IMG/VR virus record: IMGVR_UViG_3300031673_000410
Location: 1-26,412 of that record
DNA: 26,412 bases
Origin: a virus
Direction: 5' to 3' (one strand)
Each line of letters opens with the position of its first letter. The stretch's first letter is position 1. The translations under genes were made by a program, and so were the position numbers. Of the stretch, positions 5,931 through 26,412 are shown one piece after another. The notes below the pieces were generated by a model. The model did no database searches and had not been told where the DNA came from. It saw nothing but the letters and a program-made list of their open reading frames with translations.

Positions 5931-5961
5931 CAGTGAGCGGACAAGCTCAGAGGAGGGAACG

Positions 5962-6477: not shown

Positions 6478-6481
6478 AAGC

Positions 6482-6569: not shown

Positions 6570-6587
6570 AGAACAGAGGAGGTGCCA

Positions 6588-6773: not shown

Positions 6774-6825
6774 AATATCCCAAGCCTTGCCCCGCTCGCC
6801 TGGGCTACCCGCCCGAGGAGGAATG

Positions 6826-7338: not shown

Positions 7339-7344
7339 CAATCC

Positions 7345-7376
7345 GGGGAGCGCGTAACCGGCAGGTTACAGGCCCC
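7345..7376 (+). promoter_or_regulatory. Small nested hairpin leader
   Basis: GTAACC (7354-7359) and GGTTAC (7364-7369) form a perfect hairpin with a four-base GGCA loop, enclosed by GGGG (7345-7348) paired with CCCC (7373-7376). It sits between the lipoprotein gene and the next ribosome binding site and continues the pattern of one inverted-repeat leader per small gene. Confidence 0.45.
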
Positions 7377-7407
7377 AATGTCGAATACAAAATACGAGGA
7401 GGAAACG

Positions 7408-9561: not shown

Positions 9562-9562
9562 A

Positions 9563-9742
9563 ATGACAACAATAGAAGCAGTGACAATCGAGCACCTGCA
9601 CTGCAACGAGTGCGACAGCGTTCAGCCGCACGTCCTGCAACCCGGGGTGGCGTACCATTGCCTAAATTGCCGGGCGCTAGGGCTCGACACAAAGAAGCTG
9701 CTGGAGCACGACCGGAGATATCGCCCTGACCCAAGGGATTAA
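9563..9742 (+). CDS. Small zinc-ribbon protein (59 aa)
   Basis: ATG 9563 follows GAGGAGGTAGAG. The translated 59 residues contain HCNEC (13-17, CxxC) and HCLNC (32-36, CxxC) separated by about 15 residues, a minimal four-cysteine zinc ribbon, followed by a charged tail (KKLLEHDRRYRPDPRD). Small zinc ribbons of this type in phages often bind nucleic acid or host polymerase; that is inference. It sits between the HNH gene and the nuclease/methyltransferase pair with short spacers on both sides. Confidence 0.65.
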   Translation: MTTIEAVTIEHLHCNECDSVQPHVLQPGVAYHCLNCRALGLDTKKLLEHDRRYRPDPRD

Positions 9743-9752
9743 GGAGGCACAG

Positions 9753-9962
9753 ATGAGCAGCAAAAAGCACCGCAACCACACCCGTGAAGAGCTGCTGAAG
9801 CAGCGCGCTGTCGATGACAGCAGGCACGGCATCCAGAAGCCGGCGGCGAATATCGGCGCGCCTCATGCAACCGGCACGACAATTCTGTATAATCCATTCA
9901 GGCGTCAGAGATTCCTGCACAAGGGAATAGTCATAGTTCGGGCGCCGCTATCGAGTAAATAG
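9753..9962 (+). CDS. Small basic hypothetical protein (69 aa)
   Basis: ATG 9753 follows TAAGGAGGCACAG, and the gene lies in a tight series with clear ribosome binding sites on both sides. The product is basic at the N-terminus (MSSKKHRNHTREELLKQRAVDDSRHG) and has a short hydrophobic/aromatic C-terminal part (TTILYNPFRRQRFLHKGIVIVRAP). Neither cysteines nor a membrane segment are seen. Function unknown. Confidence 0.5.
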   Translation: MSSKKHRNHTREELLKQRAVDDSRHGIQKPAANIGAPHATGTTILYNPFRRQRFLHKGIVIVRAPLSSK

Positions 9963-9975
9963 AAGGAGGGACATC

Positions 9976-10689
9976 ATGGCACAGTCACCGACGGCCGCAC
10001 ACCAGCGGTACCGAAACAAGAACGGGGCAATAGTACCCGGCGTGACTACAGTCATCGGCCTGCTCGCGAAGCCTGCGCTCGTACCATGGGCGTGGAAGCT
10101 TGGCATGCAGGGCGAGGACATGAACAAGGTCCGCGACATGGCGGCGGACATCGGCACGGCGGCGCACTACATGGCCGAGTGCATGTTCAAGGGCAATAAG
10201 CCCGACTTCCAGCACACGACGCCTTACGTCGTGGCGGCAGCCATGAAGATGATGCCGGACCTCGAGAGGTACATCAAGGCCAACCCGTCGAAGACGCTGG
10301 CCAGCGAGGAGAACGTCGTCAGCGAGAAGTGGCAATACGGCGGGTGCATCGACTGGGTATGCGTGCCGGAGGCCACCGGCCTCGTGACCATCAGGGACAT
10401 CAAGACCAGCAAGGGAATATATGCCGAATACCTGATACAGATAGCGGCATACGAGCAGGCCTGGAACGAGGTCCATCCCGACATGCCGATACAGGCCAAA
10501 GAGGCCATCCACATGGACAAGGAGACAGGCCTCTTGACCGTCCACCCGTTCTGCGACCTGGCGACCGAGTTCGAGATATTCAAGCACCTGCGGGCCATAT
10601 ACGTGCTGCAGAAGAAGGCCGACCCGAACCGGAACAAGCCGCAGACTAACAGCTACCGGAAGGTCAGCAAGTTCGGAGGTGCCGTATGA
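9976..10689 (+). CDS. PD-(D/E)XK nuclease of RecB/Cas4-like exonuclease type
   Basis: ATG 9976 follows GAAGGAGGGACATC. The 237-residue protein carries the ordered motifs of RecB-family exonucleases: GTAAH (60-64, His64), Glu117 in SEKWQYGGCIDW with Asp126, IRDIKTS (139-145, Asp141 and Lys143), and QIAAYEQAW (155-163, the Q..xY motif). No four-Cys iron-sulfur set like that of Cas4/AddB is apparent. Phage enzymes of this kind usually work in recombination or end-processing. Its stop overlaps the methyltransferase start (ATGA), so a restriction-like partnership is an alternative, but the motif spacing fits the exonuclease family better. Confidence 0.83.
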   Translation: MAQSPTAAHQRYRNKNGAIVPGVTTVIGLLAKPALVPWAWKLGMQGEDMNKVRDMAADIGTAAHYMAECMFKGNKPDFQHTTPYVVAAAMKMMPDLERYIKANPSKTLASEENVVSEKWQYGGCIDWVCVPEATGLVTIRDIKTSKGIYAEYLIQIAAYEQAWNEVHPDMPIQAKEAIHMDKETGLLTVHPFCDLATEFEIFKHLRAIYVLQKKADPNRNKPQTNSYRKVSKFGGAV

Positions 10690-11642
10690 CGAAGGGCCTC
10701 GAGACGTTCGTCGACTGGTTCGCCGGCATCGGCGGCTTCCGCCTGGCGGGCGAGACTAACGGATTAAAATGCAAAGGAGCATGCGAGAATGACAAACGGG
10801 CAAGGCAAACATACGCAAAGAATTTCGGACACGAGCCTGAGTTCGGGGACGCCAGGGACGTCGACCCGGCCTCTATTCCAGACCATGACCTCTTCTGTGC
10901 AGGCTTCCCCTGCCAGTCCTTCAGCACAGCGGGAAAGAAGCTCGGCTTCCAAGACGCCCGCGGCACCCTCTTCTTTGAGATATGTCGAATACTTGACGCT
11001 AGGCGGCCAAATTACTTCCTGCTTGAGAACGTTAAGGGCCTTCTGCTCGCGCCTTTCCGAGACGCCTCCGGAAAAATCATGCCCGAGACTGCCGGATGGG
11101 TGTTCTATCGAATCCTGGAGACGCTGGGGGACTTGGGGTATACTGTCCAGTGGCAGGTGCTTGACAGCCGACATTGGGTTGCCCAGCACCGAGAGAGAAC
11201 ATACATTATCGGAAATTCTCGAGCCGTGCCCTTCCCAGAAGTATTTCCGCTCTTCGATGATACAAGAGAGATGGCAGACAATACTCCATGGAGGTCAATG
11301 CCGCTAGGCAACGTGGCCTCATGGTCGCAGCCGCCGTCGCTACGCACGAACCCGAACCCATGGCACCAAGGCCAGACGGGCAGGGTGTACGGGCCAGGCA
11401 GCACGTGCCCGACGCTGTCGACAGGCCGCGAGCCGATGCTCGACGACGGCGGCAGGCTGCGGGTGCTGACGCCGGTCGAGAGGGAGAGGCTGATGGGCTT
11501 CCCCGACGGATGGACGGATGGCGTCAGCGACGACCAGAGGTTCAAGCAGACGGGGAATGCCGTCGTGACGAAAGTCGCCGCTGAGGTGATAAGGGCGCTG
11601 GCGGAATGCCACGCCAACGGCGGAAGGAGGGCCACGACGTGA
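10686..11642 (+). CDS. C5-cytosine DNA methyltransferase
   Basis: The 318-residue protein has the canonical motifs in order: I, WFAGIGGFR (11-19); IV, AGFPCQSFS (72-80) with catalytic Cys76; VI, LENVKG (113-118); VIII, QHRERTYIIG (167-176); a short target-recognition region (about 180-255); IX, LTPVERERLMGFPDGW; and X, KQTGNAVV near the C-terminus. It transfers a methyl group from S-adenosylmethionine to C5 of cytosine in a specific sequence that cannot be predicted here. No obvious cognate restriction enzyme is present, so it probably protects phage DNA. A Vsr homologue at 3018 is the natural repair partner. The gene is coupled by ATGA to the upstream nuclease, and its first half is less G+C-rich than its second. 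Confidence 0.95.
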   Translation: MTKGLETFVDWFAGIGGFRLAGETNGLKCKGACENDKRARQTYAKNFGHEPEFGDARDVDPASIPDHDLFCAGFPCQSFSTAGKKLGFQDARGTLFFEICRILDARRPNYFLLENVKGLLLAPFRDASGKIMPETAGWVFYRILETLGDLGYTVQWQVLDSRHWVAQHRERTYIIGNSRAVPFPEVFPLFDDTREMADNTPWRSMPLGNVASWSQPPSLRTNPNPWHQGQTGRVYGPGSTCPTLSTGREPMLDDGGRLRVLTPVERERLMGFPDGWTDGVSDDQRFKQTGNAVVTKVAAEVIRALAECHANGGRRATT

Positions 11643-11686
11643 CGTGCGGCCCCACGACAAGAATCTGGGTACGTCCGGCCGAAAGG

Positions 11687-11730
11687 CAATAGGATTATAC
11701 TCGAGACGGCAGGATTCGCGTCAAGCGAGT
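11687..11730 (+). promoter_or_regulatory. CAATAGGATTATACTC element, copy 2
   Basis: CAATAGGATTATACTC (11687-11702) is followed after seven bases by CAGGATTCGCGTC (11710-11722), exactly as at 21184-21219. The two AGGATT cores are 20 bases apart. ACTCG (11699-11703) pairs with CGAGT (11726-11730), and GACG with CGTC inside that. AGAATCTGGG about 28 bases upstream of the element is also shared with copy 1 at 6492. TATACT (11696-11701) could be a -10 box; no -35 consensus is seen. The element lies in the 117-base gap before the gene at 11760. Confidence 0.6.
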
Positions 11731-11759
11731 CCGCCGATATTGAACGAAGGAGGAATGAA

Positions 11760-12197
11760 ATGGCGACAAAAGGCAGCAAGAGCAAGGAAGAGCCGGCGGC
11801 AGAGCAAGAGCCGGAAGAGAACGAGGCCGAACTGTTCGACCGCGACACGGAAGAGGCGCAATCACTGGCCGACCTAGCGGGCACCGGCGGCGGCATGTTC
11901 GAGGGGCCACTGGTCAAAATGGAGGCAATCAAGGGCCGGAAGCATATTGTGCTCGACTTCAGGATGATGCCAAGCACATTCAATGAGGGAGGCACCTATG
12001 CCTGCATCCAGATAAAGATTGGCGGCGCACTTCAGGTCGTCAACACCAACGCTCAGGTCATACTGAAGGGCCTGGCGGCGACGGACAAGAATAGGCTGCC
12101 GGTGCCGAACGCCTTCGTCATGCGCGAGGGCAAGAAGGCCGGGAGCAAGCCGTACTGGGACTTCGCCGGGAGCGACGAGCTGAAGGACCTAAAATAG
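11760..12197 (+). CDS. Acidic protein, possible ssDNA-binding or recombination accessory
   Basis: ATG 11760 follows GAAGGAGGAATGAA. The 145-residue product has a disordered acidic/basic N-terminus (about 1-40, KGSKSKEEPAAEQEPEENEAELFDRD). A beta-rich domain follows (about 50-140) with KGRKHIVLDFRMMPSTFNEGGTYACIQIKIGGALQVVNTNAQVILKGLAAT and KPYWDFAGSDELKD. Alternating strands with conserved-looking aromatic and glycine positions suggest an OB-like fold. Its place between the nuclease/methyltransferase and the replication genes would suit an ssDNA-binding protein, but this is inference; I recognise no definite family. It has its own candidate promoter element upstream. Confidence 0.6.
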   Translation: MATKGSKSKEEPAAEQEPEENEAELFDRDTEEAQSLADLAGTGGGMFEGPLVKMEAIKGRKHIVLDFRMMPSTFNEGGTYACIQIKIGGALQVVNTNAQVILKGLAATDKNRLPVPNAFVMREGKKAGSKPYWDFAGSDELKDLK

Positions 12198-12484
12198 TGA
12201 GGTGGCCATTAGGCTGCCCCGACAAGACATGCAGGAAGCTGGCGCGGAAGCCGCTGGTCATCGGGTTCATGTGCGTCGGAAGGCTCTCGACTCCGACCGG
12301 CCACGTGATTCCCGGCGTGAACGACCTGTGCTTCTGCTTCAAGCAGAGAGCTTGCCTCAACAGGTGGCACATGAACAGGGCCGACATCGGCATGCTGGCC
12401 AAGCTGCTCGACAAGGCAATGAAGAACGACGCGGAGGATAATCGTGAGCAGAGTGCTATACATCTACGTGACAAGGCACCATGA
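12197..12484 (+). CDS. Cys-rich small protein (95 aa), GTG start
   Basis: The GTG start at 12197 overlaps the upstream TAG by one base, and only a weak GAAGGA site precedes it. Six cysteines at 7, 12, 26, 45, 47 and 53, with His58, suggest metal binding (GCPDKTC, FMC, LCFCFKQRAC). The tail beyond residue 80 overlaps the next gene by 41 bases and looks less constrained. A + strand frame from 12202 is a shadow. Function unknown; a zinc-binding accessory of the replication region is the simplest guess. Confidence 0.55.
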   Translation: MRWPLGCPDKTCRKLARKPLVIGFMCVGRLSTPTGHVIPGVNDLCFCFKQRACLNRWHMNRADIGMLAKLLDKAMKNDAEDNREQSAIHLRDKAP

Positions 12485-12689
12485 CATCGGCAACAAATTT
12501 GACTCGGCCAGGGAAGCGCAGGTCTACCTGACCGAACCGGCCAGCGCCGGCTCGCTGCTGATGGTCGACAATGTGGCCCATGCCATAACCGGCATCACTA
12601 AGTGCCCGGGCGACGCGCCGGACGTGCTCATGGTGACGCACAAGACGGCCGAGCATTATATCGTGCCGGTAAGAGAGCAAGTGCTATGA
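12444..12689 (+). CDS. Small hypothetical protein (81 aa), GTG start
   Basis: GTG 12444 has GCGGAGG seven bases upstream inside the preceding gene. The sequence reads as a small alpha/beta fold: VLYIYVTRHHDIGNKFDSAREAQVYLTEPASAGSLLMVDNVAHAITGI, then VLMVTHKTAEHYIVPVREQV. The strand-helix-strand pattern is clear, but I see no catalytic motif. It is part of a run of short overlapping genes ahead of the primase gene. Function unknown. Confidence 0.55.
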   Translation: MSRVLYIYVTRHHDIGNKFDSAREAQVYLTEPASAGSLLMVDNVAHAITGITKCPGDAPDVLMVTHKTAEHYIVPVREQVL

Positions 12690-12711
12690 CAGCCGCGACA
12701 AGGAGACGACA

Positions 12712-12993
12712 GTGCCGTACATAGACCACGACAAAAGGCGTCCGATAGACGACGCGGCGACGAAGATGGCCGCCGAGATTCTGGCCATGCCGGAGAGGGA
12801 GAGGGACGGGGCCTTCAACTATGCCGTGACCCGCCTTGTCGTCAAGGTATTCGGCAGGGTGGGATACAGCAATTTCGTGCGGGTGGCCGGCGGCCTTGAC
12901 GAGGTCAAGGCGGAATACCGCAGGCGCATAGTCGCCCCATACGAGGACATGAAGAATGACCAGAACGGAGACGTATATGGCACCGAAATGTAG
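12712..12993 (+). CDS. DUF6899-like phage protein (93 aa), GTG start
   Basis: GTG 12712 follows AAGGAGACGACA. The product starts MPYIDHDKRRPIDD and ends with EYRRRIVAPYEDMKNDQNGDVY, with GAFNYAVTRLVVKVFG in the middle. This MPYI...NY(A)ITRL...Y(R)R...PYE..K...NGDVY pattern is that of a widespread small phage protein family, which I believe is DUF6899. No biochemical role is established for it. It is often found near nucleotide-metabolism or replication genes, as here. Confidence 0.65.
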   Translation: MPYIDHDKRRPIDDAATKMAAEILAMPERERDGAFNYAVTRLVVKVFGRVGYSNFVRVAGGLDEVKAEYRRRIVAPYEDMKNDQNGDVYGTEM

Positions 12994-13378
12994 AGAAGCA
13001 TTTTACATCGCCAGCAAGTGGGAGAACAAAGACAACGTGGCCAGACTGGCGGCCGAACTAGAGAAAATGGGCCACAGCATCAGCCACAAGTGGTTCGCGG
13101 TCGAGGCGGCCTATATGCAAGATGCCCCGATGCACGCCAGGCTAGACCTGCACGGAGTGCGAGACTGCACGACATTCGTAGCCCTGTTCGATGCGGACTT
13201 TTCGTTCCTGAATGCCTATGTCGAATTGGGCATGGCGCTGGCCCTGAGCAAGAAGGTGTTCATCGTCGGCCAGGCCGACAAGAACTGCCTGTTCACGCGG
13301 CTGGAGGAGCCTGACGCATTCATCGAGAGGTTCGACGGCGTCGACTCGTTCCTGGCATTCATGCGGAGCGGAAATTGA
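12977..13378 (+). CDS. Nucleoside 2-deoxyribosyltransferase-like protein
   Basis: ATG 12977 is chosen over ATG 12956 because CGGAG lies seven to eight bases upstream. The 133-residue protein has the family layout: a first strand FYIASKWENKDNVARLAAELEKMGHSISHKW (9-39), central acidic residues around 57-74 (RLDLHGVRDCTTFVALFDAD), and the catalytic-Glu helix AYVELGMALALSKKVFIVG (80-98, Glu83). Enzymes of this fold cleave or exchange the N-glycosidic bond of deoxynucleosides or deoxynucleotides, so it may salvage or remodel nucleotide pools for phage replication. The relation to TIR/NADase-like folds leaves other N-glycosidase substrates possible. Confidence 0.75.
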   Translation: MAPKCREAFYIASKWENKDNVARLAAELEKMGHSISHKWFAVEAAYMQDAPMHARLDLHGVRDCTTFVALFDADFSFLNAYVELGMALALSKKVFIVGQADKNCLFTRLEEPDAFIERFDGVDSFLAFMRSGN

Positions 13379-13710
13379 TGGCAAGCACCAAGGCCCGGAG
13401 CATGGTCAAGGCCATGACGTGGCGGGCGCTGTCCGTAGCAGTCACCACGGCATTCGTGTGGCTCGTCACCGGCAGCCGCAATACGGCGATGATTGTCATG
13501 ACGTTCGATATAGTGTTCATGACTGGCCTGTATTATGCGCATGAGCGAGCATGGAAAGCCATCATCTGGGGCAAGTACCCGACAGACTGGACCAAGTACG
13601 GCTGGGAAAGGAAAGCCGATGAAGGCATTCAAGTGCAGGGCGGAGAGGCGGAACCTGACGGCCTATGGCATGGTCGTAGAGAAGACGACAGGAGGCACCC
13701 TGTATTTTGA
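13378..13710 (+). CDS. DUF2061-type membrane protein
   Basis: ATG 13378 overlaps the upstream TGA. Residues 6-55 match DUF2061: RSMVKAMTWRALSVAVTTAFVWLVTGSRNTAMIVMTFDIVFMTGLYYAHERAW, two membrane helices with the characteristic K..TWR and YY.HER.W ends. The role of DUF2061 proteins is unknown. Beyond about residue 75 the frame continues through a region overlapped by another small frame (13619), and that tail (GIQVQGGEAEPDGLWHGRRED) looks uncharacteristic. The functional protein may be essentially the first 75 residues. Confidence 0.75.
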   Translation: MASTKARSMVKAMTWRALSVAVTTAFVWLVTGSRNTAMIVMTFDIVFMTGLYYAHERAWKAIIWGKYPTDWTKYGWERKADEGIQVQGGEAEPDGLWHGRREDDRRHPVF

Positions 13711-13834
13711 CGTGTATTGGAGATGGCACGCATGGCGAATAGGACTGCAGACCCGAAGATGCCGGGAAAGGACGCCGACCTGTTCAGGTGGGCAGACTTC
13801 TACCTCGGACTCGGCTGCTCCGTCATCCCGCTGA
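13619..13834 (+). CDS. Possible small overlapping gene
   Basis: ATG 13619 lies inside the DUF2061 gene's 3' end, with only GGAAAGG as a ribosome binding site. The first 40 residues (MKAFKCRAERRNLTAYGMVV..., then TLYFDVYWRWHAWRIG) use codons typical of this genome and look like a compact beta-rich peptide, whereas the remaining residues are read out of frame within the primase gene. Either a genuine short gene with an overlapping tail, or a chance frame. Confidence 0.3.
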   Translation: MKAFKCRAERRNLTAYGMVVEKTTGGTLYFDVYWRWHAWRIGLQTRRCRERTPTCSGGQTSTSDSAAPSSR

Positions 13835-15684
13835 GGGAAGGCAAGCTGCCGGCGGTCCAGTGGAAGGAGTTCCAGGAGCACAAGGCCGACCGCGGCCAGT
13901 TGATGAAATGGTTCGCCGGCGACACCGGCTGGGGAATGGCCATCGTGTGCGGCAAGGTGTCGGGCAATCTCGTCAGGATAGACTTCGACGAGCCGGCTGA
14001 CTATGTGGAACTCAAGTCAAAGATGCCCATTGCGCCCACGTTCAAGTCGCAGCGCAAGGGAGGCGGATACGGCATGCTCCTCAGGTCTACCGAGACGGTG
14101 CCGCTACTTCCGCAGAACACGTTCAAAGACTATCCGAAGCTAGAGGTCAGAGGCGAAGGCGGAATCACGGTCGTGCCGCCGACGCCGGGATACGAATGGC
14201 TAGGCCAGTTCACCACAATCAAGGAGACTGACGTTCCGGCCATGCTTACGAGGTTGTTCGGGTTCGACCTCTCAAAGAGAGGTATGCTCAGAGACGCAGT
14301 CGAGAGGACCGGCGGTAACGAACTGACCGCCCTGCTCAAAGACACAGAACAAGGGGAGCGTTCTAACAACCTCGTAAAGATTGCCGGAATGCTGCGGGCC
14401 AGAGGCATCGACCTGGAGACGGGCCTCGAGGTCATGGAGCACAACTTCGAGGAGCATTGGCCGCACGACGACATGACGTGGGGCGAGGCTCGCGACACGT
14501 TCGAGCGGGCCTGGAAGCGGTACGAGCATGAAGGCGTCCGCCTGACCGGCGGGGGCAAGCCCGGAGGCGCGGCATGGGCCGACGAGGAAGACGACGACGA
14601 GGTCGTGGTCCAGCGCCTGTCCGAGATTAAGAAGAAGACGGAAGAGGAGACTGTTCTGGTCGAGAAGGTCGTCTGCGCCGGCGAGATGGGAAACACGGTC
14701 ATCGCGGCCCCGGCCAAGGTCGGCAAGACCTCACTCTGCCTCGACATGTCGATAACGGCCAGCCGCGGAGACCTCGTCTGGGGCGGCCTTCGGGTCATGA
14801 AGGCGCTGAGGATAGCCTACATCGACCAGGAGCGCAAGGCAGGGCAGATACTCGAGAACAAGGACATAATGACGCAGGTCATCGGCGAACCCAACGACAA
14901 GAACCTCATAATCCTCACGCAGAAGTCGGGAGACTTCAACATCGGTCACCAGAAGACGCTTTCCCGCCTGTACAGCACCTTGAAAGACTTCAGGCCGGAC
15001 CTCATCATACTCGACGGGTGGGCCTGGTTCTGTCAAGACCCGAGCGACCCCGACAAGGTGAGGAAAGCGCTCAGCTGGCTGAAGAAGACGAGGCAGTCGC
15101 TCGATTGCGCCTCCATCATAATCCACCACTTCAAGAAGTCGCAGACGCAGTTCGGAACGAGCGGGGCCAACGGCGAGTTCATCGACATGCTCGACCAGAT
15201 AGGCGGCATGAAGAGGCTGTCGGACCAGGCCCACACGGCGCTGGTCTATGTGCCCATAAACAACTACGACACGTTCAATGTCCTGAGCGGCAGGACGAAC
15301 AAGCCCAGTTGGGACCCGCCGAAGACGGTCATCGACTATGACCACATGACCCTTACGCATAAGGTCATCACGGCCGAAGAAGGCAGGGAACTGTTCGACG
15401 CCGAGACCTACCGCAACCTGTGGGGCACGTCAAGCGCCGAGAGCCGGCAGGTCAAGGGCATGATAAACGTCATCAAGCTGAGGTTCGGCCTCAACCAGAG
15501 CGAGCTGGCCTCAAAGCTTGGCGTCACGCAGTCTGTCGTGTCGAAATGGTATTCGGGCCAGCAGAATCCGAGCAAGGAAATCATAAAGAAGCTGGAGGAG
15601 CTTTACGTGGCAGCCAAGCAGCGGCCGGCTAAAGCTGCCAAGATGCCGAGGCCGGCCAGGCAGACGAAAGGACTGGGAGACTAA
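13732..15684 (+). CDS. Prim-Pol/RecA-like replicative primase-helicase with C-terminal XRE HTH
   Basis: ATG 13732 is preferred (GGAG nine bases upstream) over TTG 13717 and ATG 13723. The 650-residue product has three modules. Residues 15-160: a bifunctional primase-polymerase (Prim-Pol) domain with the metal-binding IDFDE (83-87, Asp84/Asp86) and QRKGGGYG and EVRGEGGITVVPPT motifs. Residues 310-550: a RecA/RepA-like ATPase (AAA_25 type) with PAKVGKTS (327-334) and LIILDGW (424-430). Residues 577-610: a classic HTH (GLNQSELASKLGVTQSVVSKWYSG) like XRE/Cro repressors, then a basic tail. It should synthesise primers and unwind DNA at phage replication forks. The fused HTH may target it to an origin or regulate its gene. 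UDG-PolA follows. Confidence 0.85.
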   Translation: MANRTADPKMPGKDADLFRWADFYLGLGCSVIPLREGKLPAVQWKEFQEHKADRGQLMKWFAGDTGWGMAIVCGKVSGNLVRIDFDEPADYVELKSKMPIAPTFKSQRKGGGYGMLLRSTETVPLLPQNTFKDYPKLEVRGEGGITVVPPTPGYEWLGQFTTIKETDVPAMLTRLFGFDLSKRGMLRDAVERTGGNELTALLKDTEQGERSNNLVKIAGMLRARGIDLETGLEVMEHNFEEHWPHDDMTWGEARDTFERAWKRYEHEGVRLTGGGKPGGAAWADEEDDDEVVVQRLSEIKKKTEEETVLVEKVVCAGEMGNTVIAAPAKVGKTSLCLDMSITASRGDLVWGGLRVMKALRIAYIDQERKAGQILENKDIMTQVIGEPNDKNLIILTQKSGDFNIGHQKTLSRLYSTLKDFRPDLIILDGWAWFCQDPSDPDKVRKALSWLKKTRQSLDCASIIIHHFKKSQTQFGTSGANGEFIDMLDQIGGMKRLSDQAHTALVYVPINNYDTFNVLSGRTNKPSWDPPKTVIDYDHMTLTHKVITAEEGRELFDAETYRNLWGTSSAESRQVKGMINVIKLRFGLNQSELASKLGVTQSVVSKWYSGQQNPSKEIIKKLEELYVAAKQRPAKAAKMPRPARQTKGLGD

Positions 15685-16016: not shown

Positions 16017-18248
16017 ATGGCCGAGCGAATACTAAAGGATAAGCCGCATCCCGGAAAGCCGGGCCGCTATTGCGGCCAGTGCCTTTACAGGGATGAGCGC
16101 CTGGTCCGAGGCGGAGGTCCTGTCGGCGGCGTCGCGATATTCGGCGAGGGGCCTGGCCAGACCGACGCCAAGACGGGCCGATGCTATTCCGGCCTGACGG
16201 GCATCCGCCTGGAGAAGCAACTCGCGAAGGCCGGCATAGACATCAAGGCGTGCTGGCTGGACAATGTCGTCCAGTGCCACGTGCCGAAATCTAGGGCGCC
16301 GACAAAGACAGCCATGCGGTGCTGCAGGCCACTGCTGGAAGAGGTGCTCGCCAAGTGCCAGCCGCACACGGTCATCGCCCTCGGTTCGGCGGCGCTCGAG
16401 GCATTCTATCCGGGAGGCAAGGTCACGGAGTATCATGGCGCGAAGATTTGCGGCGACGGCTATTTCCTATTCCCGATGTTCAAGCCGGACGCGCAGGACG
16501 AGAATCCTGACTACCTTCGCGTCCTGGCAAGAGATTATATAGGCATGCCGAAAAGGGCGACCTTGGAGCCAATCCAGGGCGACTACACGCTGTCCAGGAG
16601 ATGGTTCACCGTCTCCAACGACAGATTCGCGATAGACACGGAGACCACCGGACTTGAGCTTGACTCGAAGCTAAAGGGAATATCGTTCTCCGACGAGCCG
16701 GGCACGGCCGTCTACATACCGGCCAGGTACGCCAGGCACGGGGTCACGTTCGAGGACAAGTGCGTCATGCAGAACGCCAAGTACGACCTCGGCATACTGC
16801 AGTCGAACGGTGTGGCGTCGATAGACTCATGGGCCAGCGTGGACGACACCATGCTGCTGGCGTACGTCATGGAGAAGAAGCCGCTGGGCCTCAAGACGCT
16901 GGCCGTGCAGGAACTGGCGCTGGAGATGACGCACTTCAGGGACGTGGCCGAAGGGGACAGCCTGGAGGGCGTCAGCGACGAGGACACGGTCGACTACGCA
17001 TGCGCCGACGCGGACGCCACGCTGAGGCTCTGGGAATGCCTTTGGAGGCAGGCCGTGCCGAGGGAGAGGCGGCTCTACGAGAAGATGGAGAAGCCGCTCC
17101 CGCCGATACTGGCCAAGATGGAGCTGGCCGGCGTCAATATCGACATACCGTACCTGCACAGGCTCGGGGCCGAGATAGACGAGGAGACGGGGCAGATAGA
17201 GGCCCACCTCGAGTACGAGTTCGGCCTGGACCCGCACTCGCTCGGCAAGCCGAAGAAGATGCAGGAGTTCATATACGGAACCCTCAAGCTGCCCATATCC
17301 GCCCTGACGGACCCGGACAACCCTTCCTGCAGCCGGCGGATACTGGAGCGCATAAGGGACAAGCATTCCGCCGTCGACCTCGTGCTGAGGCACAACGAGC
17401 TGGCGGCGCTCAAGAACAACTTCGTCACGGGACTCATCGACAAGACCCGCGACGGCAAGGCGCACCCGAAGTTCAACCAGGCGAGGGTGAAGACGGGCCG
17501 CATGTCGTCGAGCGGCCCCAACTTCCAGGGCCTGCCGAGCAGGCGGACCAGCGACTTCAGGCGGGCCATAGTCGCGCCTGAGGGCATGGTCGTGGCGGCG
17601 TTCGACAACTCGCAGATTGACCTCCGCTCGCTGGCCCACATCTCGCAGTGCCCGGTGATGAACGGAATTTTCGACAGGGGCGAGGACATGCACGCCGCCA
17701 CCTCGATGCTCATATACGGCGACCTCGAGGGCACGCACAGGTTCGAGGCGAAGGCGGCCAACTTCATGCCGGTGTACGGAGGCACAAAGTTCGGGCTGTC
17801 GCGCAGGACCGGCCTGCCGGAGGAGACCGCCCAGGAGTTCCTCGACAAGTGGTACGCCAAATACTACGGCGTGACGCAGTGGCTCGAGAGGCTACGGACG
17901 CAGGCGCTCCGCGACGGGTTTGTCGAGACGATATACGGGCGCAGGCTGCACATACCGGAGCTGTTCACGAGGACGCAGGCGCACGCCCTGAGGATAGCGC
18001 AGAACATGCCGATACAGGGCACCAGCGCCGACGTGATGAAGCTCCAGATGATAGCCGTCGCCGCGATAGCGATGCCGTTCGTCCAGATACACGACGAGCT
18101 TGCCTTCTACCTGCCCAAGGGCAAGGGGCTGAAGGCGACGCTCCGCGAGCTGAAGGCGGCAATGGAGGGCATCGAGTGCCCGTTCAGGCTGGTCGTGGAC
18201 GTCAAGGTCGGCCCGACGCTGGGCGACCTCGAGAAGATGGAGCTGTGA
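16017..18248 (+). CDS. Uracil-DNA glycosylase / DNA polymerase A fusion
   Basis: ATG 16017 gives a 743-residue protein; longer frames read through the membrane microprotein. Residues 1-175 are a family-4-like uracil-DNA glycosylase: CGQC (19-22), GEGPGQTD (43-50), NVVQC (83-87) and CC (102-103), giving four candidate FeS ligands, and ALGSAA (121-126). The usual HP(S/A) motif is KPD (156-158), so activity may be altered. Residues 200-345 are a 3'-5' exonuclease (Asp207-Glu209, Asn253-x3-Asp257, Tyr327-x3-Asp331). Residues 350-743 are a family A polymerase: motif A FDNSQIDLR (529-537), motif B R575-x3-K579-x3-F583-x2-YxG-like, motif C HDE (692-694). No 5' nuclease domain is present. It is the probable replicative polymerase with uracil surveillance built in. 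Confidence 0.92.
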   Translation: MAERILKDKPHPGKPGRYCGQCLYRDERLVRGGGPVGGVAIFGEGPGQTDAKTGRCYSGLTGIRLEKQLAKAGIDIKACWLDNVVQCHVPKSRAPTKTAMRCCRPLLEEVLAKCQPHTVIALGSAALEAFYPGGKVTEYHGAKICGDGYFLFPMFKPDAQDENPDYLRVLARDYIGMPKRATLEPIQGDYTLSRRWFTVSNDRFAIDTETTGLELDSKLKGISFSDEPGTAVYIPARYARHGVTFEDKCVMQNAKYDLGILQSNGVASIDSWASVDDTMLLAYVMEKKPLGLKTLAVQELALEMTHFRDVAEGDSLEGVSDEDTVDYACADADATLRLWECLWRQAVPRERRLYEKMEKPLPPILAKMELAGVNIDIPYLHRLGAEIDEETGQIEAHLEYEFGLDPHSLGKPKKMQEFIYGTLKLPISALTDPDNPSCSRRILERIRDKHSAVDLVLRHNELAALKNNFVTGLIDKTRDGKAHPKFNQARVKTGRMSSSGPNFQGLPSRRTSDFRRAIVAPEGMVVAAFDNSQIDLRSLAHISQCPVMNGIFDRGEDMHAATSMLIYGDLEGTHRFEAKAANFMPVYGGTKFGLSRRTGLPEETAQEFLDKWYAKYYGVTQWLERLRTQALRDGFVETIYGRRLHIPELFTRTQAHALRIAQNMPIQGTSADVMKLQMIAVAAIAMPFVQIHDELAFYLPKGKGLKATLRELKAAMEGIECPFRLVVDVKVGPTLGDLEKMEL

Positions 18249-19999: not shown

Positions 20000-20249
20000 T
20001 CTAACGCGTGGCTCCTCTGCCTGCGCCAGTCTCAGTCCGCAGGCAATAGGTACTGGGAAGCCTGTAACCCGCGCGAAACGAGACACCCAGTCCTATCTGG
20101 TCCTATATCGGAAGGAATTACGAGGGCCCGTGCCTCCCCTGCCGGCGTGCTGCACTATTTTAATGCGCACCGAATATGGGGTTTTCGGAGGCTCGATATG
20201 CAATTGATGCAAACAATTAGAGCGCACGTTCTAGCGCTCGGAGGCGTGT
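20000..20249 (+). other. 250-base intergenic region with inverted repeats before the ligase gene
   Basis: No gene is seen. TGCCTGC near 20020 pairs with GCAGGCA near 20038. AATTG and CAATT flank a seven-base loop near 20203-20218. At 20220-20239, GAGCGC and GCGCTC close a loop of ACGTTCTA directly before GGAGG of the ligase gene; the ACGTTCTAG string and its position before the ribosome binding site are the same as in the leader at 4285-4293. No clear promoter consensus was found; TATTTTAAT near 20156 is A/T-rich. Confidence 0.45.
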
Positions 20250-21182
20250 ATGAATGACAACAAGTGGGCGATGCTGTGCAAGCTGAGGGTAGCGCCGTTC
20301 GACGACCCGCTCTGGCGGTGGGAGCGCAAGCTTGACGGCTGCCGGCTGAGGGTCGACATAGACGGCCGCAGCGGCATAGGCCTGACGGCCAGGAGCGGCG
20401 CCGACAAGACGGCCCAGTTCCCGGACGTGGTTCAGGCGTTGGCCCTGACCGTCGACTGGGGAGCGGCGCCTATGATACTCGACGGCGAGGTCGTGAGCGC
20501 CGATGGCCTCAGCTTCCAGGAGTTCAACCAGAGGCGGATGAACAGGACCGAGGACGTGGCGCTGACGGCCGTGGAGTTGCCGGCCGCCTACGTGGCCTTC
20601 GACGTCCTGAGCGCCTGGGGCAGGGACATGGAGCCGAGGTCTCTGGCCGACAGGCTGGTCGTCCTCGGCCAGGTCAGGCCGTCATGGTGCAAGGCGCCGG
20701 AGTGTTCGGACAGCGGCGTCGAGCTGTTCAAGCGCGCCGTGTCTGAGGGCTGGGAGGGCGTGGTCGGCAAGCGGTTGCTGGAGCCGTACCTCCCGAACAG
20801 GCGGGCGTGGGTCAAGGTCAAGCTGTGGCACGAGGGCGTGTTCGACTGCGTTGGCTACACGTTCGGCGCCGGCAAGAGGGAGAAGCTGTTCGGCGCCCTG
20901 GTCTTCCAGAGCGAGGACGGCAGGCTCAAGTCTGAGGTTGGCACCGGGTTCGACGACGCCACCCTGGAGTCGCTGCTCGGGTTCATGAGCGGCAGGCGCA
21001 CGAGCCTGATGCTGGTAGGCGGCGCGATGCCTGCGCCCGTCGGCGTGAACGTCGAGCCGTTCAAGGTCAGGGTCAAGTATTGCGAGGTCACGAACGCCGG
21101 TTCGCTCAGGTTCCCGGTCTACCTTGGCAAGAGCGACGGTGAGAGGCTCCCAGACACGAGCAGGGGCGCCTCAAGGCACTAG
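20250..21182 (+). CDS. ATP-dependent DNA ligase
   Basis: ATG 20250 follows CGGAGG. The 310-residue protein has the nucleotidyltransferase motifs: I, ERKLDGCR with adenylated Lys27; LDGE (78-81); III/IIIa, AYVAFDVL (113-120); IV, EGVVGK (169-174); and V, WVKVK (187-191). A small OB-fold C-terminal domain follows (about 195-300). Size and motifs fit the compact two-domain ATP-dependent ligases of phages. It would seal nicks during replication and finish the repair started by the Vsr-like and UDG-polymerase proteins. A structured leader just before the ribosome binding site suggests separate control. Confidence 0.92.
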   Translation: MNDNKWAMLCKLRVAPFDDPLWRWERKLDGCRLRVDIDGRSGIGLTARSGADKTAQFPDVVQALALTVDWGAAPMILDGEVVSADGLSFQEFNQRRMNRTEDVALTAVELPAAYVAFDVLSAWGRDMEPRSLADRLVVLGQVRPSWCKAPECSDSGVELFKRAVSEGWEGVVGKRLLEPYLPNRRAWVKVKLWHEGVFDCVGYTFGAGKREKLFGALVFQSEDGRLKSEVGTGFDDATLESLLGFMSGRRTSLMLVGGAMPAPVGVNVEPFKVRVKYCEVTNAGSLRFPVYLGKSDGERLPDTSRGASRH

Positions 21183-21183
21183 T

Positions 21184-21231
21184 CAATAGGATTATACTCT
21201 CAAGTCCAGGATTCGCGTCCTGTGGCTTGGG
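21184..21231 (+). promoter_or_regulatory. CAATAGGATTATACTC element, copy 3
   Basis: CAATAGGATTATACTC (21184-21199), seven bases, then CAGGATTCGCGTC (21207-21219): identical boxes and spacing to copy 2 at 11687. CTCAAG (21199-21204) pairs with CTTGGG (21226-21231, one wobble), enclosing CAGGA-TTCGCG-TCCTG (21207-21222). TATACT (21193-21198) could be a -10 box. The next gene starts at 21247. Confidence 0.6.
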
Positions 21232-21246
21232 CGAATAGGAGGAAGC

Positions 21247-21531
21247 ATGAGGCCAGGAATGAACGGCGCCAAGTATGACGTGGTGTCGAGGGACGCCGAT
21301 AAGGTGGTCCTGCGTGACGTCGGTCCGTGGAGTCAGCACCCGACCGTGACCAACGACGCGGAGCAGGTGGTCGAGGACGTGGCGCAGTGGGCCGGTGCTC
21401 GGCGCATACTGTACTACGACAGCGACGGCGAGCTCACCGAGCTGAGGCACGAGGGGACCAGGTTCGCTGGGTTCGCCTTCGTCAAACCCGAGGGGACGAA
21501 ACGAGGGAGGCCAGACGATAATGGTGTATAA
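21247..21531 (+). CDS. Small hypothetical protein (94 aa)
   Basis: ATG 21247 follows TAGGAGGAAGC. The product reads KYDVVSRDADKVVLRDVGPWSQHPTVTNDAEQVVEDVAQWAGARRILYYDSDGELTELRHEGTRFAGFAFV, an alpha/beta pattern seen in phage proteins of unknown role that are annotated only as hypothetical. The W..HPTVTNDAE and ILYYDS(D)GE strings are the most family-like parts. It overlaps the following gene by 11 bases. Function unknown. Confidence 0.65.
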   Translation: MRPGMNGAKYDVVSRDADKVVLRDVGPWSQHPTVTNDAEQVVEDVAQWAGARRILYYDSDGELTELRHEGTRFAGFAFVKPEGTKRGRPDDNGV

Positions 21532-22087
21532 TGAAAACGTGATAGAGGATAAGGCTCCCGTTCTCAGGTTAGCCGTCTCAGGTAAGATGCGGTCCAGCAA
21601 GGACTCAACTGCCGTCAGACTGGTCGAGCGGTACGGCTTCATACGCTATGCGTTCGCGGACCGCCTCAAGGAGGTGGCTCGGGAGCTGTTCGGCATGCCT
21701 GAGGGCACCAAGAACCGCCACCTGCTTGTTGAGCTCGGGCGCAAGATGTGCGAGGTAGACAAGCTAGTGTGGGTCAACTACGTGCTGGGCAAGATACCGC
21801 TCAGGCAGGACGTGGTCATCACGGACATGCGCTTCAAGTACGAGTACCTCGCCCTCAAGGCGTTCGACTTCATAATGGTGCGCGTCAACATCGACGAATG
21901 GGAGCGAGAGCGGAGGGTCCAGAAGTACGGGTCGCCGGTCGACCTGGCGCTGCTCAAGGACAAGAGCGAGACGGACCTGGACGGCGAGCGCTTCGACTTC
22001 ACGCTTGACGGCACAACCTACGAGGGACTGCACGAGGGCATTGCCAAGATGATGACTGCGCTCGGGAGGAAGGCGGCCAATGACTGA
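21521..22087 (+). CDS. Deoxynucleoside-monophosphate kinase-like protein
   Basis: ATG 21521 follows GGGAGG at somewhat long spacing. The 188-residue product starts with a P-loop-like SGKMRSSKDST (20-30), resembling the SGK..SGKDT motif of T4 gp1-type dNMP kinases but with Ser26 in place of the second glycine. FADRLKEVARELFG (45-58) and VVITDMRFKYEY (about 97-108, TD.R.. motif) also fit that family. It should phosphorylate dNMPs to dNDPs for replication. The altered P-loop leaves activity uncertain. TATAATG lies within codons 3-5, possibly a promoter. Confidence 0.75.
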   Translation: MVYNENVIEDKAPVLRLAVSGKMRSSKDSTAVRLVERYGFIRYAFADRLKEVARELFGMPEGTKNRHLLVELGRKMCEVDKLVWVNYVLGKIPLRQDVVITDMRFKYEYLALKAFDFIMVRVNIDEWERERRVQKYGSPVDLALLKDKSETDLDGERFDFTLDGTTYEGLHEGIAKMMTALGRKAAND

Positions 22088-22526
22088 AGGACAGGAATAC
22101 GAGACACGGGTCGCGCTGCCCAAGCCCAAGAGGCCGGTGGGACGGCCGCCAAAGCATGGTGCTTTCACTGGCTCCGAGCTTGCGCTGCTGGTGCCCATCA
22201 AGCGGAACGACATAATCGAGGTGCTCACAGGCTCCAAGGTCATGGTCGGACCGGCGGACATGGTGGCTGTCAGCATGCTTGCCGGGTGCCTTTCGAAGAT
22301 GGAACTGCTGGACAGGTTCTTCGCCTCGCAGGGCATATTCGACAGCGACAATGAGATACGGCAGGGGCCGTTCAAGGTGTACCTTGCGGCGATGAACGCG
22401 GCTGTCAGGCTGCTGACGCAACTTGGCATGACGCCGGATTCCCGCATCAAGCTTGGCATCGGGATGCTGCAGTCGAACAAGGACCTGGCCTCGATGATGA
22501 GCGAAGACGAGGAGGACCCGTCATGA
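22080..22526 (+). CDS. terS: P27-family terminase small subunit
   Basis: ATG 22080 overlaps the upstream stop. The 148-residue protein starts with a basic RPVGRPPKHG linker (18-27). A helical core follows, with DMVAVSMLAGCLSKMELLDRFFASQGI and, near the C-terminus, YLAAMNAAVRLLTQLGMTPDSRIKLGI, matching the (A..)L...LG(L/M)TP.SR..L signature of P27-type small terminases. It would recognise phage DNA for packaging. Position two genes before the large terminase supports this. Confidence 0.82.
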   Translation: MTEGQEYETRVALPKPKRPVGRPPKHGAFTGSELALLVPIKRNDIIEVLTGSKVMVGPADMVAVSMLAGCLSKMELLDRFFASQGIFDSDNEIRQGPFKVYLAAMNAAVRLLTQLGMTPDSRIKLGIGMLQSNKDLASMMSEDEEDPS

Positions 22527-22729
22527 TAAACTGGAGACTACAACCGACCGCCTGCGGAGGCGGCGCGTTGCGCATATTTGACATGAGGACCGGGAGCAAC
22601 ATCATAATCATGTTCAACGATACCGACAAGCTGCTCAGGATGCTCGATGACATAGCCGATGGCGTCGAGACGCTCAGTCGAGAGCAGGCTCCTGAGGCGT
22701 TTGTTCGCGTGTTCCCGGAGAGGTTCTAA
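22523..22729 (+). CDS. Small hypothetical protein (68 aa) between terminase genes
   Basis: ATG 22523 overlaps the terS stop (ATGA), with GAGGA upstream, and its stop overlaps the next ATG (TAATG). The product has LRIFDMRTGSNIIIMFNDTDKLLRMLDDIADGV and a C-terminal APEAFVRVFPERF, a short alpha/beta pattern. No metal or membrane motif is present. It could be a packaging accessory by position only. Confidence 0.55.
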   Translation: MINWRLQPTACGGGALRIFDMRTGSNIIIMFNDTDKLLRMLDDIADGVETLSREQAPEAFVRVFPERF

Positions 22730-23031
22730 TGGCGAAATACCCAGGCAACCATGCCGGCGTTCATAACTCACATTGGAGAGGCGGCGTCTGTCTTGACAGT
22801 GACGGTTATGTGTTAGTCAAAAGACGCGAGCATCCAAGGGCAGACATCAGAGGGTATGTTAAGCGGTCCATATTGGTGTGGGAAAAGGCGCACGATGGCG
22901 TGTCATTCCCAGAAGGCATGGAGCCTCACCACAAGAATGAAGTTAAGGACGACGACAGGCCTGAGAATATAGAACCGAAGACACATGCAGGTCATACTCG
23001 AGACCATAATTTGAGGAGTGCCAATGACTAA
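22729..23031 (+). CDS. HNH_3-type endonuclease between terS and terL
   Basis: The 100-residue protein has WRGGVCLDSDGYVLVK, EHPRADIRGYVKRSILVWEKAH and then the active-site region PEGMEPHHKNEVKDDDRPENIEPKTHAGH (His67-His68, Asn70, Asn80, His86, His89), typical of compact HNH_3 homing endonucleases. Its bases are clearly more A/T-rich than both terminase genes, suggesting lateral gain. HNH proteins beside terminases can be needed for packaging in cos phages, but this subtype is more often free-standing and mobile. Both roles remain open. Its 3' end overlaps the terL start. Confidence 0.88.
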   Translation: MAKYPGNHAGVHNSHWRGGVCLDSDGYVLVKRREHPRADIRGYVKRSILVWEKAHDGVSFPEGMEPHHKNEVKDDDRPENIEPKTHAGHTRDHNLRSAND

Positions 23032-24466
23032 GCCGACGGAGATAACGCCCGAAAAGGCCAAGCAGTACAAGACGGACATAATCGCGTTCCTTGAGGAGCA
23101 GTACATCTGCCCCGAGACCGGCAAGCTAATAGTCCTTGAAGACTGGCAGAAGGAGCTCATACTCTGGCCCCTGTTCTACGACCTGCAGCCTGACGGGCGG
23201 CGCAAGTACACGCTGGCTCTGCTGGGCATGCCAAAGAAGCACGGCAAGAGCACGCTGGCCTCTGGCATAGGTGTCTGGTTTTGCTTTGCAGGCGAACCTC
23301 ATGGCGAGGTCATCATTGCCGCGAATAATCTTGACCAAGCTTCTTTGATTATATACGAGAAGATACGGCAGGCGTTCAAGCTGAACCCGAACCTGCTGGC
23401 CTCTGCGCGGCTGCTCAAGACCGGCATCGAGATGAAGGGGACTGGCACGGTATGCCGGCCCATAGCCCACAAGTACCAGACGGCGGCTGGTGTCAACCCG
23501 ACCCTGGTGCTGTTCGACGAGCTGTGGGGGTTCCCCGGGCGTGAGTTCTATGACGAGCTCACGACGTCGCCGGCTAGGCAGAATCCGCTGGGCCTCATAG
23601 TGACATACGCCGGCTACGACAAGGAGTCGCTGCTGTACGAGATATACAAGACGGGCAAGGCCCACACCGACCCGCGAATGTTCTACCTGTGGTTCCACGA
23701 CACCAAGGCGTCATGGATTAGCCAGGAGTACCTGGACACCCAGAGGATGCGGTTGCCCCCGAACTCGTACGCCAGGTTCCACGAGAACCGGTGGTCGGCG
23801 GCAGAGGGCACGTTCGTGACCGAGGACGACATCGCCCGCCTGCATTCCGTGCCCTGGTCAATACAGTACGCCCCGGACCAGAGTCGTCCGCTGCTCGAGT
23901 ACATTGAGTCGTGCGACGCCGGCCTGAGTCATGACCGGACCGCCAGGTGCGTCGGGCACTACGACCCGATGGACGGGCGAGTGTACGTTGACAGCCTGCG
24001 GTACTGGCAGGGGACGAAGACGCAGCACGTGGACATGTCCAGCGTGGAGGCTGACCTGAAGGACACCGGCACCACGTTCAGGGCCAACAAGCTGGTCATC
24101 GACCCGTGGCAGATGGAGTACGTCATGCAGCGGCTGAAGCCGTACTTCGTCATCGAGCCGTTCAACTTCAACGCTGACATGATGTTCATGTCCCAGACGC
24201 TGATAACCATGCTCAGGAACGGCACGCTCGTGTGCTACACGGAGCCTGAGCTCGACAAGGAGCTCAAGGAGATTATAGCGAAGCAGACAGGGCAGGGCTG
24301 GAGGATAGAGCACGTCAGGGGCAAGAAGAACGACCTCGTCATCGCCGTCGGCATGATGGCTGTGGCGGCTATCCGCAATGCTGGCGTGTCAGACTTCGAC
24401 TTTCTGGAGGATAAGAACCCACTACCCCCTGTTGGCTTCAGGGGCATAAGGGGGAAGGAGTTTTGA
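23024..24466 (+). CDS. terL: Terminase large subunit
   Basis: ATG 23024 follows GAGGAG; the frame also allows GTG 23018, less well placed. The 480-residue protein has the ATPase motifs LGMPKKHGKST (67-77, Walker A) and LVLFDE (161-166, Walker B with Glu166). Its RNase H-like nuclease acidic residues are at Asp298 (SCDAGLSHD), Asp360 (VIDPWQ) and Asp437 (KKNDLVIAVG). It packages DNA into the prohead and cuts the concatemer. It is complete, of normal length for Terminase_1-like enzymes, and follows terS and an HNH gene in the usual order. Confidence 0.95.
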   Translation: MTKPTEITPEKAKQYKTDIIAFLEEQYICPETGKLIVLEDWQKELILWPLFYDLQPDGRRKYTLALLGMPKKHGKSTLASGIGVWFCFAGEPHGEVIIAANNLDQASLIIYEKIRQAFKLNPNLLASARLLKTGIEMKGTGTVCRPIAHKYQTAAGVNPTLVLFDELWGFPGREFYDELTTSPARQNPLGLIVTYAGYDKESLLYEIYKTGKAHTDPRMFYLWFHDTKASWISQEYLDTQRMRLPPNSYARFHENRWSAAEGTFVTEDDIARLHSVPWSIQYAPDQSRPLLEYIESCDAGLSHDRTARCVGHYDPMDGRVYVDSLRYWQGTKTQHVDMSSVEADLKDTGTTFRANKLVIDPWQMEYVMQRLKPYFVIEPFNFNADMMFMSQTLITMLRNGTLVCYTEPELDKELKEIIAKQTGQGWRIEHVRGKKNDLVIAVGMMAVAAIRNAGVSDFDFLEDKNPLPPVGFRGIRGKEF

Positions 24467-24468
24467 AG

Positions 24469-26412
24469 ATGAGCCTACAGTCAAGGATTCAAGCATTCAT
24501 GGGCAAGGACCCAAAGCCCGAGACCAAGGTTGAACTTGGCGCCACGGGGACGTCGGTGTTCGCTGGTCTCTTGTACGAAGAGGAGTACAACGCCGACCTC
24601 AGGGGTGAGAAGGCCATTAAGACTTATGACAAGATGCGGCGGTCAGACGGCCAGGTCAAGGCCGGTCTTCTTGCGAGCAAGCTGCCGCTGATGGTGGCTC
24701 GCTGGGACATAACACCGGCAAGCGAGGACCAGGCCGACGTGAACATTGCCAGCGCGGTCAGGGACGACTTGTTCGACAACATGTCCATCACCTGGGACGA
24801 CTTCCTCAGGCATGCGCTCATTATGCTCGACTTTGGTTACATGGTATTCGAGAAGGTGTGGGAGCTCAGGGACGGGCGCTATACGTGGGACAAGCTCGCG
24901 CCACGATTGCCGAAGTCGATAACGGAGTGGCACATCAAGGACAACGGAGACCTGGACTACATCATCCAGCAGGCTCAGTTCAAGGACGGATTCAGGCAGG
25001 TGCCTTTGCCTGCCTCTAAGCTGCTCGTCTTCACCCACGAACGGGAGGGCAGCAACTTCACCGGCATCAGCCTGTTGAGGGCTGCGTACAAGCACTGGTG
25101 GTACAAGAACAACCTGTATGCCATAGACGGCATTGCGTCAGAGCGTCACGGCGTCGGACTGGCCGACTTCACGTACCCAGACCAGGCGACACAGGCGCAG
25201 AAGGACGCGGTCAAGGCCATAGGCGAACGGCTGCACGCCCACGAGCGTGCGTATACGGCTCACCCTGAGTCTGTGAAGTTCGACCTGAAGGGCGTCGCCG
25301 GTCAGCTGCACGACATCATGAAGAGCGTGGACCACCACGACCTGCAGATTGTCCGCAGCATCCTGGCTCAGTTCATGAACCTCGGCACAAAGCAAGGCTC
25401 GTATGCCCTGAGTCAAGACCAGTCGCAGTTCTTCTTGATGGCCTTGCAGTCTGTCGGCAGGAACATCTGCAACACAATCAACCGGCATTGCATCCGCGAG
25501 ATGGTCGACCTCAACTGGTACGTCAAGAGGTACCCGAAGCTGACCATCAGCGGTCTCGACAGCCCGGACGTCCTGGCGTATGCCGGGGCCATAGGCGCAT
25601 TGATGACATCGGGCGCCATCACACCGGACATAGACACTGAGAACGAGCTGAGGCGGATGGTAAAGCTGCCCCACAAGAAGGTGGCCGCGGTGCCGAAGCC
25701 TGAGCAGCCGGTGGCGATGCGGGCGACAGACTTCTGGCGGGAGCCGACCAGCGTCGAGCAGTCGGTGGCGTTCGCCGACATCAAGGGGGCTCTGGACACA
25801 TTCGAGGAGCAGTTCATCAAGGCGGTACAGCCGATACAGCGCAAGCAGACGGCGGCCATGGTAAGCAAGGTCGCGGACTACATAGCGAAAGGCAACATCG
25901 ACAAGCTGGCGGAGATAGACGTGCCGCTCAAGGACAAGGTGGCTGACGCCATCGAGGTCCTGCTTTCGGGGCTCGTGGACTACGGCGCCGAGCAGGTCAA
26001 GGCTGAGGCCAAGCGGCAGGGAGCGACAATGAAGGCGGTTGACGTCGAGCCGCCAGACCCGGCTTCGTTCACCAGGGTCAGGGCCCTGTCGATAGCCAAC
26101 ATCTTGGCGAACAGGATGCGGTCGGCCATGTCTTGGGAGGCGCTGCGGCAGACAAGGGCCGGGGCGCTGGACACCGGTCAGCTGACGGCGTCAGTCGACG
26201 AGCTGTCGGACAGCGAGCTGCTCAAGGTGTCGAAGGAGTCGGCCGGAGAGGCCGTCAACATGGGCAGGCAAGAGCAGGCAAAGATGATGGGCATCAAGCG
26301 CATCACGTCGAGCGCGCTGCTCGACGATAACACGTGCGACTACTGCAGGGAGATGGACGGCAAGTCTTGGGCGCCCGGCGGACAGCCGACCGGGGTGCAC
26401 GAGCCGCCGTAC
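24469..26412 (+). CDS. Portal protein (DUF935/Mu gp29-like) fused to a MuF-type head domain, 3' end outside window
   Basis: ATG 24469 lies two bases after the terL stop, with GGGAAGGAG upstream. The frame stays open to the window edge (648 residues seen). Residues about 25-400 match the DUF935/Mu gp29 portal family: RSDGQVKAGLLASKLPLMVARWDI, FLRHALIMLDFGYMVFEKVWE, PASKLLVFTHEREGSNFTGISLLRAAYKHWWYKNN. After a linker, residues about 470-648 look like a minor head (MuF/SPP1 gp7-like) domain with the late ITSSALLDDNTCDYCREMDGK segment (Cys623, Cys626). Portals form the dodecameric DNA gate; MuF proteins accompany them in the capsid. Here both seem to be one chain. Confidence 0.88.
   Translation, partial: MSLQSRIQAFMGKDPKPETKVELGATGTSVFAGLLYEEEYNADLRGEKAIKTYDKMRRSDGQVKAGLLASKLPLMVARWDITPASEDQADVNIASAVRDDLFDNMSITWDDFLRHALIMLDFGYMVFEKVWELRDGRYTWDKLAPRLPKSITEWHIKDNGDLDYIIQQAQFKDGFRQVPLPASKLLVFTHEREGSNFTGISLLRAAYKHWWYKNNLYAIDGIASERHGVGLADFTYPDQATQAQKDAVKAIGERLHAHERAYTAHPESVKFDLKGVAGQLHDIMKSVDHHDLQIVRSILAQFMNLGTKQGSYALSQDQSQFFLMALQSVGRNICNTINRHCIREMVDLNWYVKRYPKLTISGLDSPDVLAYAGAIGALMTSGAITPDIDTENELRRMVKLPHKKVAAVPKPEQPVAMRATDFWREPTSVEQSVAFADIKGALDTFEEQFIKAVQPIQRKQTAAMVSKVADYIAKGNIDKLAEIDVPLKDKVADAIEVLLSGLVDYGAEQVKAEAKRQGATMKAVDVEPPDPASFTRVRALSIANILANRMRSAMSWEALRQTRAGALDTGQLTASVDELSDSELLKVSKESAGEAVNMGRQEQAKMMGIKRITSSALLDDNTCDYCREMDGKSWAPGGQPTGVHEPPY

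Follow-up and report, generated by a model that had tools for sequence, protein, structure and literature searches.

Gene, domain architecture and genome context

The window, by which we mean the whole stretch of DNA that was analyzed, is an IMG/VR virus record of 26,412 bases. Its plus strand encodes, at 16017..18248, a fusion of a uracil-DNA glycosylase (UDG) domain to a family A DNA polymerase (PolA). The frame, open without interruption from 15939 through 18248, corresponds to one protein. Alignment with the orthologs begins at the ATG at 16017 and does not extend upstream, so we take this codon as the start, which gives a chain of 743 residues. Pfam recognizes three domains, each above its cut-off: UDG (residues 39–160), DNA_pol_A_exo1 (203–345) and DNA_pol_A (379–734). 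The N-terminal, family-4-type UDG domain comprises residues 1–180 (16017..16556; PF03167, AlphaFold and PDB 1ui1). The 3'-5' exonuclease domain follows at 16623..17051 (PF01612) and contains Asp207, Glu209, Asp277 and Asp331, while the polymerase domain at 17151..18218 (PF00476, 253 bits) contains Asp530, Lys579 and His692-Asp693 and has structural matches to the Klenow and Bst enzymes. All of these residues sit in invariant alignment columns, and the sequence carries motifs A, B and C of family A polymerases together with the exonuclease acids; judged by these positions, both domains look intact. The AlphaFold model of the full chain (pLDDT 91.0, pTM 0.89) finds its best PDB matches in Klenow or Bst polymerase. 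Neither the window nor its kin contigs, which are those of the same or sister phages reached through TerL, gave a match to the 5'-nuclease domain (PF02739). The score against the aminoadenine polymerase DpoZ (NCBIfam NF038380) is 118.8 bits, below the cut-off of 500.

Other features of the genome were recorded alongside. A Vsr mismatch endonuclease and a C5-cytosine methyltransferase (3018–3416 and 10686–11642) occur in the same phage, and Vsr is also present in contigs G001, G002 and G005. In the region 13717–15684, Prim-Pol and AAA ATPase domains are joined to a C-terminal HTH, a combination with almost no relatives in phage records; 12956–13378 gives a weak nucleoside 2-deoxyribosyltransferase match under the Pfam cut-off. 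One 33,511-base contig (L130 and L135) has two separate stretches that are 99.98% identical to the window in circularly permuted order, which suggests a circularly mapping genome of about 39 kb. The TerL scan of genome contigs found no host.

Fold and family of the N-terminal domain

The Pfam UDG match scores 62 bits (cut-off 24.3, E = 7e-17), and the closest solved structure by sequence is Thermus thermophilus UDGa (1ui0, E = 3e-17). The AlphaFold model of the domain (pLDDT 89.7) is predicted to adopt the UDG fold of family 4, with UDGa again the closest PDB fold (1ui1, TM 0.80). Four cysteines are candidate FeS ligands: Cys19 and Cys22 form a CxxC at 16071..16082, Cys87 lies within motif 3, and Cys103 is encoded at 16323..16325. 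In fused homologs, Cys makes up at least 90% of each of these columns (66 aligned domains for the CxxC), so at the level of sequence the window protein has the four-cysteine set of family 4. The NCBIfam profile for UDG family 4 (TIGR00758) gives 66.1 bits, below its cut-off of 125.3.

Active-site residues

The Thermus UDGa pocket was mapped by Xia et al. in 2017 and comprises E41, G42, E47, F54, N80 and H155, together with N89 (PMC5387724). These align with Glu44, Gly45, Asp50, Tyr57, Asn83, Ser92 and Lys156 of the window protein, with Ser92 in the place of N89 and Lys156 in that of H155. Motif 1, GEGPGQTD (residues 43–50, 16143..16166), departs from the family pattern GE(G/A)PGxxE in ending with Asp rather than Glu. 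Tyr57 (16185..16187) stands at the uracil-stacking position; the corresponding F54Y substitution is tolerated in Thermus UDGa, with activity largely kept (PMC5387724). Motif 3, NVVQCHVPKS (residues 83–92, 16263..16292), keeps the Asn of N80. Motif 2 and the Leu loop read KPDAQDENPD (residues 156–165, 16482..16511) where the family has HP(A/S)xxLRxP, so that Lys156 of KPD (residues 156–158) stands where the catalytic His is expected and the Thermus stretch HPAYLLRNP becomes KPDAQDENP. The alignment column for this position is 93% His in fused homologs. Counted over 86 non-redundant fused domains, 76 have His, and among the 86 Lys is found in the window protein alone.

Two of the replaced residues are tied to catalysis in the Thermus enzyme. 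Its H155S mutant loses more than 1000-fold in k2 and N89A also lowers k2, with Km slightly reduced at most in both; the remaining single mutants of Table 1, F54Y excepted, lose at least 17-fold in efficiency, their separate constants being unmeasured (PMC5387724). Thus both k2-linked residues are replaced in the window protein. The equivalent His is likewise needed in UdgX, where H178A is inactive (PMC10776899).

The alignments were made with MAFFT at 25–30% identity, with the key motif anchored by identical flanks. A misalignment of KPD was rejected because the flanking FPMFxP is letter-for-letter the same in Thermus UDGa, and an assembly error was rejected since the His position is Gln in two sister contigs that are independent of the window.

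The preliminary description, made from the same DNA, had named the one-chain fusion, the four cysteines, GEGPGQTD and KPD in place of HP(S/A), and had proposed structure prediction against Thermus UDG as a check; all of these hold up, and the UDG fold was found. Its account of the altered motif was correct for KPD and too narrow otherwise, since Asn89, Glu47 and the loop are changed as well.

Orthologs in sister phages and selection on the domain

Single-protein pattern scans (P0001) of viral and genome contigs yielded no relatives, and UDG-only alignments offered no stretch conserved enough for scanning. Two sister phages among the kin contigs, L132 and L134, encode full-length orthologs with 50% identity and the same gene order. 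At the seven Thermus pocket positions (E41, G42, E47, F54, N80, N89 and H155) both have Ala, Gly, Asp, Tyr, Asp, Thr and Gln. Their motif 1 therefore reads GAGPG, the uracil-reading Asn has become Asp, and motif 2 with its loop is QPNAYDDNPD. Asn89 and the Leu-Arg insertion loop are missing from all three proteins alike, whereas the four FeS cysteines are all retained, as is almost every structural column. The orthologs are 61–63% identical to the window protein in the UDG domain, 60–61% in the exonuclease and 41% in the polymerase.

Between L132 and L134, the UDG domain has a dN/dS (NG86) of 0.086; the polymerase value is 0.40. Synonymous divergence between the two genes (L132:4079-6292 and L134:4371-6581) varies along their length, from 0.93 in the UDG domain to 0.13 in the exonuclease and 0.36 in the polymerase. 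This pattern points to a probable mosaic gene, and we therefore lean only on the UDG value. Eight active-site and Leu-loop columns are changed at six positions in the window protein and at all eight in L132, against 3 and 2, respectively, of the other 23 family-conserved columns, the 31 columns having been split by hand after the alignment was seen. Judged from these substitution patterns, the UDG domain is under strong purifying selection despite its lost catalytic residues.

The gene is absent from contig G001, whose compared parts match the window at 3717–14349 and 20168–26412. We do not read this as a deletion, since the gap that separates the two matches coincides with the end of the contig.

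Distribution of UDG-PolA fusions

Phage records place a UDG domain N-terminal to PolA in Serratia Serbin, Yersinia P744, Pseudomonas PMBT14, STP12, Lebethron, Microcystis Mel-JY34, Bacillus SPO1L1 and Brevundimonas StAshley. One alignment-based scan of IMG/VR viral contigs returned 80 loci, the majority of them fused, and BFVD holds more phage polymerases with a UDG fold. Even the naming of a PDB molecule, "Phage SPO1 DNA polymerase-related protein", reflects the link. The architecture is already known from SPO1 and many other phages, and the rarity implied by the preliminary description gives way to a widespread arrangement. What is new here, as read from the sequences, is a set of sister orthologs in which catalytic residues are lost and all four FeS cysteines are kept. 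No functional study of phage PolA-fused UDG domains was found in the literature searched, most subscription papers lying outside it.

On the polymerase tree, which was built by a quick method and has several long branches, the window's among them, the His label needs at least seven changes (starred branches). Asn80 is also gone in seven of the seven other non-His fused domains outside the window clade (two of these are gaps, and because the rows are related the Fisher value serves as no more than a guide); among non-His fused domains, it is kept by the window protein only. Furthermore, hmmsearch finds in the PolAs L103–L129 a weak UDG-like N-terminal match of about 65 residues that lacks motif 1 and the FeS cysteines, within a shrunken UDG-like N-terminus of about 140 residues. 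The query set of the accompanying profile comparison took in unrelated L014 frames; the hmmsearch matches are independent of it. Taken together, the non-His domains and the shrunken N-termini indicate repeated loss of the glycosylase residues in phage PolAs, with part of the fold retained.

A different pocket is seen in the UDG-PolAs of L004 (2890–5496), L005 (2860–5481), L006 (2836–5340), L007 and L008 (2836–5352), which coherently show GDxPN, F54 to Gly and N80 to Pro, and keep N89, the His and the cysteines. Their neighbors include thymidylate synthase, a "pyrimidine hmase" homolog and dCMP deaminase, and the pocket may suit a 5-substituted uracil. Many fused IMG/VR loci (for example, L025, L033, L054 and L083) lie beside thymidylate synthase, dCMP deaminase and a Cas4-type exonuclease; unlike these, the window does not show thymidylate synthase and dCMP deaminase.

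A probable non-catalytic module of the polymerase

The domain, a family-4-type UDG fold with its FeS ligands, has probably ceased to act as a glycosylase and probably persists as a non-catalytic part of a phage replicative PolA. Normal uracil excision appears unlikely from the residues present. Fold, metal ligands and sequence have stayed under selection after the catalytic loss, and the domain therefore probably does something else; DNA holding or partner docking is the simplest reading for a domain attached to a polymerase. It occupies the place of the 5'-nuclease domain of the cellular enzyme, and its most likely job would be either to hold DNA, whether template or upstream duplex, near the polymerase for processivity or to dock a replication partner. 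A parallel, offered as analogy and not membership, is vaccinia D4, whose role with its polymerase does not depend on the catalytic site: the vaccinia UNG protein is required for replication and its catalytic site is not (PMC2630940). We infer both the loss of glycosylase activity and the retention of a holding or docking function.

A vestigial domain, decaying and helping only the folding or solubility of the polymerase, would be in keeping with the decay that recurs in other phages, down to the remnants of about 140 residues. For the window protein and its sisters we consider this unlikely, given that the identity of the UDG domain, its low dN/dS and the kept FeS ligands amount to more constraint than the polymerase shows, and that the structural columns reveal no progressing decay. 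The preliminary description had itself offered two readings, a uracil sensor that stalls the polymerase and excision by a changed mechanism. In the former, the domain would bind template uracil without excising it and stall synthesis or recruit, as a functional analog of archaeal PolB read-ahead. The window protein does keep Glu44, Gly45, Tyr57 and Asn83, the near-normal Km of Thermus H155S is compatible with binding (PMC5387724), and a polymerase fusion is a natural site for a sensor. However, the sister orthologs have exchanged Glu41 for Ala and Asn80 for Asp, the Asn is gone in all seven other non-His fused domains (the two gaps included), and the base-flipping Leu loop is lost. The window protein on its own could still be a sensor; since the orthologs do not share the uracil-reading Asn, conservation of such a role is unsupported, and we regard the reading as improbable overall.

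Excision by a changed mechanism is weakened. Lys156, or Gln in the sisters, would have to stabilize the leaving base or serve as the nucleophile of a lyase-type reaction, perhaps on another base. UDG families without a His at the motif-2 position exist, TDG/Mug-type enzymes function without it, and human UNG accepts cytosine once its reading Asn is changed to Asp. The pocket is largely present in the window protein, which retains most uracil-binding residues, and a Lys or a Gln might conceivably stabilize the leaving group to a small extent. Against this, His155 is not the only loss: the second catalytic residue, Asn89, which positions the water, and the loop that penetrates the DNA are missing too, and the replacement is not conserved, being Lys in one protein and Gln in its sisters. 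Such an enzyme is very unlikely. There is a similarly slim chance that these phages represent a polymerase lineage with a non-cutting FeS base reader, the window protein reading uracil and its sisters, with Asn changed to Asp, another base such as cytosine; if so, the lineage would gate synthesis on template chemistry. A uracil- or hmU-rich phage genome is unsupported: thymidylate synthase, ThyX and, for the dUTPases, the trimeric family that the profile search covered (PF00692) were not found in the window and kin contigs, records that are possibly fragmentary.

For the non-catalytic module, the value of the ortholog set is that lost catalytic residues combined with strong purifying selection separate a glycosylase job from a replication job. 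The latter becomes directly testable through domain deletion and through His-bearing versus His-less members.

Comparison with known systems

Thermus UDGa (family 4, 1ui0/1ui1) shares with the window protein its fold, FeS cysteines, GEGPG and Asn80, and differs in His155, Asn89, Glu47 and the Leu-Arg loop, all replaced in the window protein, which is also fused to PolA. UdgX is close in sequence and fold and has the GE-P motif 1; the window protein has lost the motif-2 His and lacks the cross-linking loop, the extended motif-3 loop with His109, as no insertion appears in the alignment and the score is 45.8 bits against a cut-off of 189.95. The SPO1-type fusions (SPO1L1, Serbin, PMBT14, P744 and others) have the same UDG fold N-terminal to an exonuclease-polymerase PolA, but most keep the motif-2 His, and SPO1L1 is without the FeS cysteines that the window protein keeps. 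The family A DNA polymerase of phage phiLo (PDB 9qhs, 2026) has a solved structure and, like the window protein, carries a UDG fold in its N-terminal region; the two match by profile (E = 8e-27) and by fold. At 1142 residues, the phiLo enzyme is a distant relative. Vaccinia D4 is a family 1 UDG. As the D4/UNG processivity subunit, it serves viral replication independently of catalysis (PMC2630940, PMC1936997), but it is a separate protein tethered by A20 and still an active enzyme, whereas the window's domain is part of the polymerase chain and has probably lost its activity.
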